The position numbers and the translations under genes were made by a program. A stretch of 34,037 nucleotides of DNA, from assembly GCA_014304875.1 (NCBI GenBank), contig JACRUD010000155.1, forward strand, positions 1 through 34,037. The letters run 5' to 3'. Positions within the stretch are counted from its first letter, which is position 1; every line of letters starts with the position of its first letter. This document shows, piece by piece, positions 5,217 to 32,589 of the stretch. The notes under the pieces were generated by a model, which did no database searches, had not been told where the DNA came from, and saw nothing but the letters and a program-made list of their open reading frames with translations. Origin of the DNA: Vulcanimicrobiota bacterium (GTDB lineage Bacteria > Vulcanimicrobiota > Vulcanimicrobiia > Eremiobacterales > Eremiobacteraceae).

Positions 5217-5290
5217 GTGTAGCCACGGACCTTTAGGTCCCTCCGCCGCGGGACGACCAACGGCCGCCACTAAAAGTGGCGGAACTCCAT
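5217..5290 (+). repeat. 3'-end structured repeat, copy 1
   Basis: gtgtagccacggacctttaggtccctccgccgcgggac...gtggcggaactcc; GGACC-TTTA-GGTCC hairpin, TCCGCC (5242-5247) complementary to GGCGGA (5278-5283), local hairpin CCGCCAC-TAAAA-GTGGCGG (5264-5282). Confidence 0.75.
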
Positions 5291-5319
5291 AGAGTTAGGA
5301 TCCCCAGAGTTTAGGATCC
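5291..5319. repeat. Short tandem direct repeat AGAGTTAGGATCC / AGAGTTTAGGATCC
   Basis: Two near-identical 13-14 bp units separated by CC, overlapping the stop codon of the efflux adaptor gene. Confidence 0.7.
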
Positions 5320-20870: not shown

Positions 20871-20930
20871 CCCGCGGCCTCCGCCGAGGCGGTCGAGCCC
20901 GCGGCGGACCTGAAGATCCGTGTCTACATA
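20871..20930 (-). repeat. 3'-end structured repeat, copy 3
   Basis: Minus strand: TATGTAGACACGGATCTTCAGGTCCGCCGCGGGCTCGACCGCCTCGGCGGAGGCCGCGG; same core, TCCGCC and GGCGGA boxes as copies 1 and 2. Confidence 0.65.
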
Positions 20931-31120: not shown

Positions 31121-31174
31121 TATGTAGCCACGGACCTTCAGATCCGTCCGCCTACGGATTCATACCTTGGCGGA
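31121..31174 (+). repeat. 3'-end structured repeat, copy 2
   Basis: tatgtagccacggaccttcagatccgtccgcctacggattcataccttggcgga; TCCGCC 31147-31152 complementary to GGCGGA 31169-31174. Confidence 0.75.
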
Positions 31175-31175
31175 G

Positions 31176-32589
31176 CTACGGGGCGACAAACCTATAGTGT
31201 ATCTCGTAGGCATGGGCCGCTGACCCAGCGCCCGCGTCAAGCCTGTAGGTGCTGGCAAGCGCGGCGCGAACCGCCGCGCGGACAAATTCGGCATTGCCCG
31301 TCACGATAGGATCGGCGGCCATCGGTTTCCCCCCGCGAGTCTACGACGACGATGACCCGAATGTCGCATGAAGCGCGGGCTTTGGCTTGCGACCGCGGAT
31401 ACTCGGGCAGCACCAGATTTGTGAATACGGCAGGCGAGACGATCTTCGAACTACCTGGCGAAGCCTGGGGTGCGCCGGCGCTCGAAGGAGCATCCGCCGC
31501 AGACCGATCGGGTATGACGTTGTACAAGTTGAATTTGCACGCGACGGGTTTGTCCGATTCGGCCAACATCGTGTCAGCCAAAGCCAATTGTTCGATCGGA
31601 TTGCCGGCCCACAAAAACTTTGCGTGGCCCGTGTATCCGTGGTCACCCTTATCTAAATGCAGGCTGGGCAATCGCAGCGATAGAGGACTAGGGGCGCCGG
31701 CGATATCCAAAGCAAAATCGGCCGAACCGAAGGTGTCGATGTCAGAGCCGAGCGCGACGCCGTAAAAGCCCCACCCGGCTGATGTACGACCCAAGAACGA
31801 TACGCCGATGACCGTTAGCCGGCACGATGGAGCGGGCGTGGTTCGCGACACAGGGTCGAGCGAAAAAGTATAGACTATCCTATAGGTCTCGGTCGAGGGC
31901 TTGCCGCCCACGGAGGGTGCTCCGAAGCTGCTTGCTCGCGCCGCGTCATCCAGGTCAGGAAAGCCCGATGATTCACTGACTTTGGTATCTTTGACAACAG
32001 CGTCCGGCCCTATCGTCACAAGTAGGACCACCGTTCCCTCTTCATCCCTTGACTTCGCCGTGGCTGGGTACGCCGGCTGTACTTTGCGGAGGAAATGGGC
32101 ATCGACTATAGCCGGAAGCGGCCCGGCTCCCACGGAGGACGCTCCCCGAAGAGGAACGTCGGGCTCGAGGGACAACCCGACTTCGCCTTGCGGGTCATCC
32201 CTCTTGGTTGAGGCCGCATCGCATTGCAAAGCCGCGCCGTCGAAGTTCAAACGCCTTGGTGCGACGCTCTGAATCGACGGGCCGCGCCAGCGGAAATCGA
32301 TTCGGGAGACGTAGGAATCGGCCGCCTTGGCTGGGGTCGCGCGCGGCACGTCGACGAGGACAGCCGACGCGGAGCCCGCGGCAGTCAGCAGCACCTGCAT
32401 GGAGTAGGGGCGGCTGTCTTGCGTTAGAGCGGTAACGGAATAGTGTTGGACGTCCTTGACCGTGCCGAACTCCGTTAGCTGGAACTTGGTCAGGTGCAAA
32501 GGGCAATCGGCTCGTGCCGCCGCTGCGCAGGAGCTTGCGCTCAGCAAGAACACAGCACCATGCACACACATCCGTCGCAGCGGCTTCAT
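31176..32589 (-). pseudogene. Exported protein with two TonB_C-like domains, frameshifted near the 3' end
   Basis: Signal peptide; KVQPAYPATAKSRDEEGTVVLLVTIGPDAVVKDTKVSESSGFPDLDDAA and LVLPEYPRSQAKARASCDIRVIVVVDSRG. Removing one base from the C6 run 31329-31334 continues the second domain as KPMAADPIVTGNAEFVRAAVRAALASTYRLDAGAGSAAHAYEIHYRFVAP to a stop at 31176-31178. The intact track ORF is 31237..32589. Confidence 0.75.

Follow-up and report, generated by a model that had tools for sequence, protein, structure and literature searches.

Hairpin repeats of an Eremiobacteraceae genome are GTAG-tagged REP elements related to those that frame RAYT transposase genes

Introduction

What is the short hairpin repeat that follows a gene at positions 5217-5290 of this DNA? 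The window, by which we mean the whole 34,037-nt stretch that was analysed, carries three copies of it. A preliminary description had read these as a new family of structured RNA at transcript ends, with a two-stem fold and in the orientation of the upstream gene, and had kept a REP-like element with an insertion preference as a fallback.

Results

Copies in the window

All three described copies are present at their sites, with the core CACGGAYCTTYAGRTCC exact at 5224-5240 and 31129-31145 on the plus strand and at 20906-20922 on the minus strand. Allowing up to three mismatches, the core has four matches in the window, compared with a mean of 0.39 in shuffled sequence and none of 100 shuffles reaching four, which confirms that the repeat is real and above chance, with none expected by chance. 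The elements of the window are:

5218..5244, plus strand: REP subfamily A, copy 1, with 1 mismatch to the 27-base A consensus
5264..5290, minus strand: degenerate inverted REP, B-like, read directly as CCGCCAC-TTTTA-GTGGCGG with head GGAG
20902..20928, minus strand: REP subfamily A, copy 3, with 5 mismatches to the A consensus and an exact core match
31123..31149, plus strand: REP subfamily A, copy 2, with 2 mismatches to the A consensus and an exact core match
31169..31179, minus strand: GGCGGAGCTAC, read directly, a possible decayed head (GTAG on the minus strand) of the inverted partner of copy 2

Copy 1 consists of a GTAG head (5219-5222), a stem around the loop TTTA, and a tail CTCC where the consensus has GTCC; as RNA it folds into a GGACC/GGUCC hairpin. 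The element facing it at 5264-5290 resembles the consensus of subfamily B, GTAGTGCCGCCACTTTAGTGGCGGC, with one extra T in the loop, and the two together form an inverted heterodimer of the BIME/REPIN kind. Reading GGCGGAGCTAC as a partner REP of copy 2 is doubtful, since it lacks a TTTA hairpin, and copy 3 is single and diverged, with no recognisable partner. Just past copy 1, at 5293-5319, lies a short direct repeat, GTTAGGATCC / TTTAGGATCC, which falls outside the REP plan.

Anatomy and subfamilies

The elements share one build, namely a GTAG head, a fixed 9 nt, and a perfect stem that closes a TTYA loop, which in subfamily A takes the form GTAGC-CACGGACC-TTTA-GGTCCGTCC. Read with their flanks, nearly all copies begin (A)TGTAG. 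An unbiased search for hairpins that close on TTYA and have GTAG on their upstream side returned 48 elements, as opposed to one in reversed sequence, and in 42 of these 48 intact elements the distance from GTAG to the loop is exactly 9 nt. Each position of GTAG is kept in 61-64 of 72 A copies, so that the GT[AG]G tetranucleotide at the foot of a 20-40 bp palindrome, by which REPs are recognised, is present here.

Four subfamilies follow this plan: A (CCACGGACC), B (TGCCGCCAC), C (CGGCGCGAC) and D (TGCCGCGGC). In 0.96 Mb of contigs, 74 copies of A, 21 of B, 12 of C and 39 of D were found at up to five mismatches (reversed control 0), with relative abundance skewed towards A because these contigs were picked for containing A. 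Later analyses, from which one small partial contig was left out, used 72 A copies and 144 REPs in total. Relative to A, subfamilies B-D keep the head, the spacing and the loop, and both stem arms have changed together: pair 12-21 occurs as AT (62), GC (35) and CG (11), and pair 11-22 as GC (67) and CG (45). The sister genome G005 likewise carries GGACC..GGTCC and GGAGC..GCTCC versions. Neighbouring REPs can be inverted, as in BIMEs and REPINs, yet most copies are single. Within the sampled 0.96 Mb, 23 inverted pairs lie less than 150 bp apart, 21 of which join an A to a non-A element, and none an A to an A. Such a heterodimer preference is already known for other REPs (PMC3733652). In G005 it is not seen, the pairs there being mostly tandem.

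Copy number across genomes

The preliminary description had proposed a genome search for further copies, and these exist in number. The source genome (2.49 Mb in 211 contigs, from an assembly that is 93% complete) contains 67 strict matches to the 22-base pattern GTAGCCACGGACCTTYAGGTCC, strict meaning at most two mismatches. The sister genomes G005 and G007 contain 68 and 16, the reversed pattern has no match in any genome, and at the same threshold there is no match in the other 38 relatives searched. The exact A-type pattern had no match in the named genome collection, from which very near records may be left out.

Placement relative to genes

By the gene calls of a simple hexamer model, 139 of the 144 REPs of all subfamilies are intergenic and five lie at gene edges, while intergenic sequence makes up 11% of positions; the high copy number and almost wholly intergenic location that mark REPs are therefore both found. 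Among 131 REPs classified by gap, 58 lie in convergent, 54 in tandem and 19 in divergent gaps, such that they sit mainly between convergent or unidirectional genes, again as REPs do. Convergent gaps, which hold 58 of the 131, account for 19% of intergenic length, and in tandem gaps 38 of 54 REPs are nearer the 3' end. These placement biases are already on record for REPs (PMC3733652).

That copies lie directly 3' of a gene and in the orientation of that gene is correct for the three in the window. Two of these are in convergent gaps, however, and therefore lie just as much on the 3' side of a gene that runs the other way, and the rule does not extend to the genome: relative to the nearest facing gene 3' end, 29 A copies have the same and 29 the opposite orientation (15 and 16 in tandem gaps), on which count a gene-orientation rule was rejected.

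The second stem

The two-stem fold fared similarly. Its inner hairpin is real, and the boxes TCCGCC and GGCGGA, proposed to pair as a second stem, do occur in all three window copies, but the second stem is no feature of the family. The first box is found in 7 of 72 A copies, the second in 7 of 72 and both in 3 of 72, these three being exactly the copies first described, all in the window. Since copy 1 faces the inverted B-like REP at 5264-5290, its GGCGGA box is part of that second REP. The two-stem model, missing from 69 of 72 A copies, was rejected.

RAYT genes

Genes for the Pfam domain Y1_Tnp (PF01797) were found in 10 of 15 genomes searched. All three proteins tested against NF047646 (REP_Tyr_transpos) scored above its cut-off, at 94-110 bits vs 80, one RAYT protein was matched to PDB 4er8, the E. 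coli TnpA_REP, and in an alignment of nine RAYT proteins the DH-x-H and NP-x-RA motifs are invariant. The HUH motif, the WQ and Y...NP motifs and the equivalog score that define a RAYT are thus all in place.

The closest link to subfamily A comes from G007, where an intact RAYT (NF047646; a 151-aa gene on contig C82) stands between six and four inverted copies of GTAGCGGCGGACCTTTAGGTCCGCC. The ten inverted copies of this framing repeat read GTAGC-GGCGGACC-TTTA-GGTCCGCC; they have the head, loop and inner stem in common with A and differ at two stem-base positions. Framing of a RAYT by its own inverted REPs is the pattern described for REP/RAYT pairs (PMC2817692, PMC6006769). In the source genome, the only RAYT found (C191:3606; L031:1438-1902 on contig C191 of G000) has one in-frame TAG and is framed on both sides by C and D REPs, not by A. 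Elsewhere in the taxonomic family, most RAYTs stand between inverted copies of a quite different hairpin of their own, and in a few (L059, L061 and one side of L062) the framing is weaker or unlike. A RAYT framed by inverted REPs of the same kind, as in a REPtron, was thereby found on C191 (C and D) and in G007, G001, G002 and G003; for subfamily A this holds only via the near-identical G007 hairpin. Three RAYTs occur in G007 (L041, L060 and L070), and a different hairpin family frames each of them.

Discussion

Identity and origin of the repeats

We conclude, with a probability of about 95%, that these repeats are REP elements of the GTAG superfamily, non-autonomous and spread by RAYT/TnpA_REP, an HUH Y1 endonuclease. 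The fallback of the preliminary description was accordingly the right one: the element is a GTAG-tagged REP, and related REPs frame RAYT genes. The anatomy, the copy number, the intergenic and convergent placement, the paired stem changes and the RAYT genes framed by related inverted hairpins were all observed directly. Recognition in single strands, cleavage at GTAG and mobilisation are carried over from E. coli, where the GTAG tag and hairpin, when single-stranded, serve TnpA_REP as binding and cleavage site (PMC3733652, PMC6006769). By analogy, a RAYT would bind and cut the GTAG tag with its adjacent TTYA-loop hairpin on single-stranded DNA, and REP copies would be pasted elsewhere, in many cases together with an inverted or tandem REP from a different subfamily. 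Intergenic gaps, especially those between convergent genes, are where most insertions would then survive, as they may be least harmful there. Subfamily A has probably ceased to spread here, given that the one RAYT we detected is interrupted by an in-frame stop and has REPs of two other subfamilies around it. A RAYT of subfamily A itself was not found among the contigs of the source genome (93% complete), which makes A a probable relic here, unless another RAYT lies in the missing 7% of the assembly.

Could the copies nevertheless form a new structured RNA family at transcript ends, oriented like the gene upstream and working as a terminator, a stabiliser or a site of processing? They do favour the 3' sides of genes, in convergent and tandem gaps alike, and in other bacteria there are REPs that can be transcribed and have effects on mRNA (PMC3733652). 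Against this stand the even split in orientation of the A copies and the second stem lacking in nearly all of them. Moreover, none of the 72 A copies has TTTT within 15 nt after the hairpin; without such a U-run they are no intrinsic terminators, for which a GC hairpin followed by a U-run in gene orientation is the mark. Folding of two of the three window copies is barely better than that of shuffles (z -0.66 and -0.99), Rfam has no match within the window, and the covarying stems are those of REP subfamilies with relatives on either side of transposase genes. We therefore regard a transcript-end RNA as highly improbable, and the claim of a new family with two stems and gene orientation as unsupported; the hairpins represent an already familiar type of mobile repeat, found here in a phylum that has received little study, and no novel gene-end RNA signal.

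Less improbable, though still unlikely, is that the host has co-opted its REPs for a job at gene ends, such as bidirectional attenuation, mRNA protection or gyrase/IHF binding, which would now maintain them. The enrichment in convergent gaps and the roles known for REPs elsewhere (PMC6006769, PMC3733652) speak for it, but selection against harmful insertions predicts the same placement, and co-option is compatible with RAYT-spread REPs rather than exclusive of them. Finally, elements that are short, palindromic and dispersed could be MITE-like derivatives of a DDE transposon, or an unrelated family of chance palindromes. The latter are excluded by the reversed controls of 0; given that the GTAG tag is one-sided, the spacing fixed, and related REPs frame Y1/HUH RAYT genes, we attach next to no weight to either origin.

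Comparison with known REP systems

The GTAG-tagged REPs of Haemophilus influenzae (GTAGGGTGGGCTTtAGCCCACC) and Thioalkalivibrio (GTAGGTCGGCCTTCAGGCCGAC) have short TTYA middles (PMC2817692, Table 1). They have in common with the present elements the GTAG head, a perfect GC-rich palindrome, the loop core CTTYAG, multiple copies and a RAYT framed by inverted copies, whereas stem sequence and host phylum are different, and in subfamily A the base of the stem carries a C.C mismatch and the tail reads GTCC. The Y, Z1 and Z2 REPs of E. coli, with their BIMEs and TnpA_REP (PDB 4ER8; PMC6006769), likewise comprise several subfamilies per genome and heterologous inverted pairs, and TnpA_REP is an HUH Y1 transposase related in sequence to the RAYT here. 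E. coli REPs are, however, longer and have unpaired bases inside the stem, and in the source genome the single RAYT found is interrupted. As in the REPINs of Pseudomonas fluorescens (PMC3116915), we find inverted intergenic doublets that are RAYT-linked, but those are doublets of one group, while inverted doublets in the source genome almost always join A to a different subfamily, and many copies stand singly or in tandem.

These findings add to the known range of REP/RAYT systems a bacterial family with Candidatus Eremiobacterota MAGs among its members, in which RAYTs are diverse and several REP subfamilies reside together; G001 and G002 are such MAGs, as judged by shared 60-mers, and since they belong to the same family as the genome of the window, the latter most likely stems from an Eremiobacterota MAG too. 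A 2013 survey of GTAG repeats listed only Proteobacteria, Cyanobacteria, Chloroflexi and the PVC group (PMC3733652). Among the papers searched, none has both 'repetitive extragenic palindromic' and 'Eremiobacter'. Identification as REPs also keeps a false 'new RNA family' off the record. The public record of G007 is labelled Proteobacteria bacterium Centralia_MAG_155, yet this genome groups with the Eremiobacterota MAGs.

Strand polarity of REPs

In several long contigs of G005 (C8, C9, C10, C12 and C15), co-oriented REPs are dense. Taking all REP types, 39 of 40 clusters on C15 are all minus, one is mixed and none plus (binomial p 4e-12), and at the end of C12, a contig of >200 kb, 8 of 8 clusters are plus; GC skew is positive where the REPs are minus (C15) and negative where they are plus (end of C12). 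Exact copies of GTAGTGCC are plus in 12 of 12 cases on C8, minus in 11 of 11 on C9, and minus with one exception on C10. Orientation is balanced on C11 (21:21) and C18 (9:9), and in G003 it is mixed, bar a few small contigs.

As several subsets were tested, this polarity is a lead and not a result. The 597-kb contig C11, balanced and without a GC-skew trend, implies that it is at most a property of domains, and a replication-orientation rule for all REPs was rejected on the same ground. Contig C3, which carries dnaA and a parS-like site, is not polarised, and a terminus search with a loose dif pattern gave a single 3-mismatch match, no better than the control. We tentatively suggest that some REP subfamilies, above all GTAGTGCC, may have been laid down or kept in one replication-relative orientation within a large domain away from dnaA, acting as or recording strand polarity in the manner of KOPS, although we consider this the less probable outcome. 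Dependence on replication direction has already been shown for relatives of IS200/IS605. If confirmed on closed genomes, a polarised domain would be direct evidence of the same dependence in the insertion or retention of REPs. In the source genome, subfamily D is coherent by contig (35 vs 21.3 ± 3.3) and runs against GC skew (p 0.0004-0.005), and it does not follow the coding strand.
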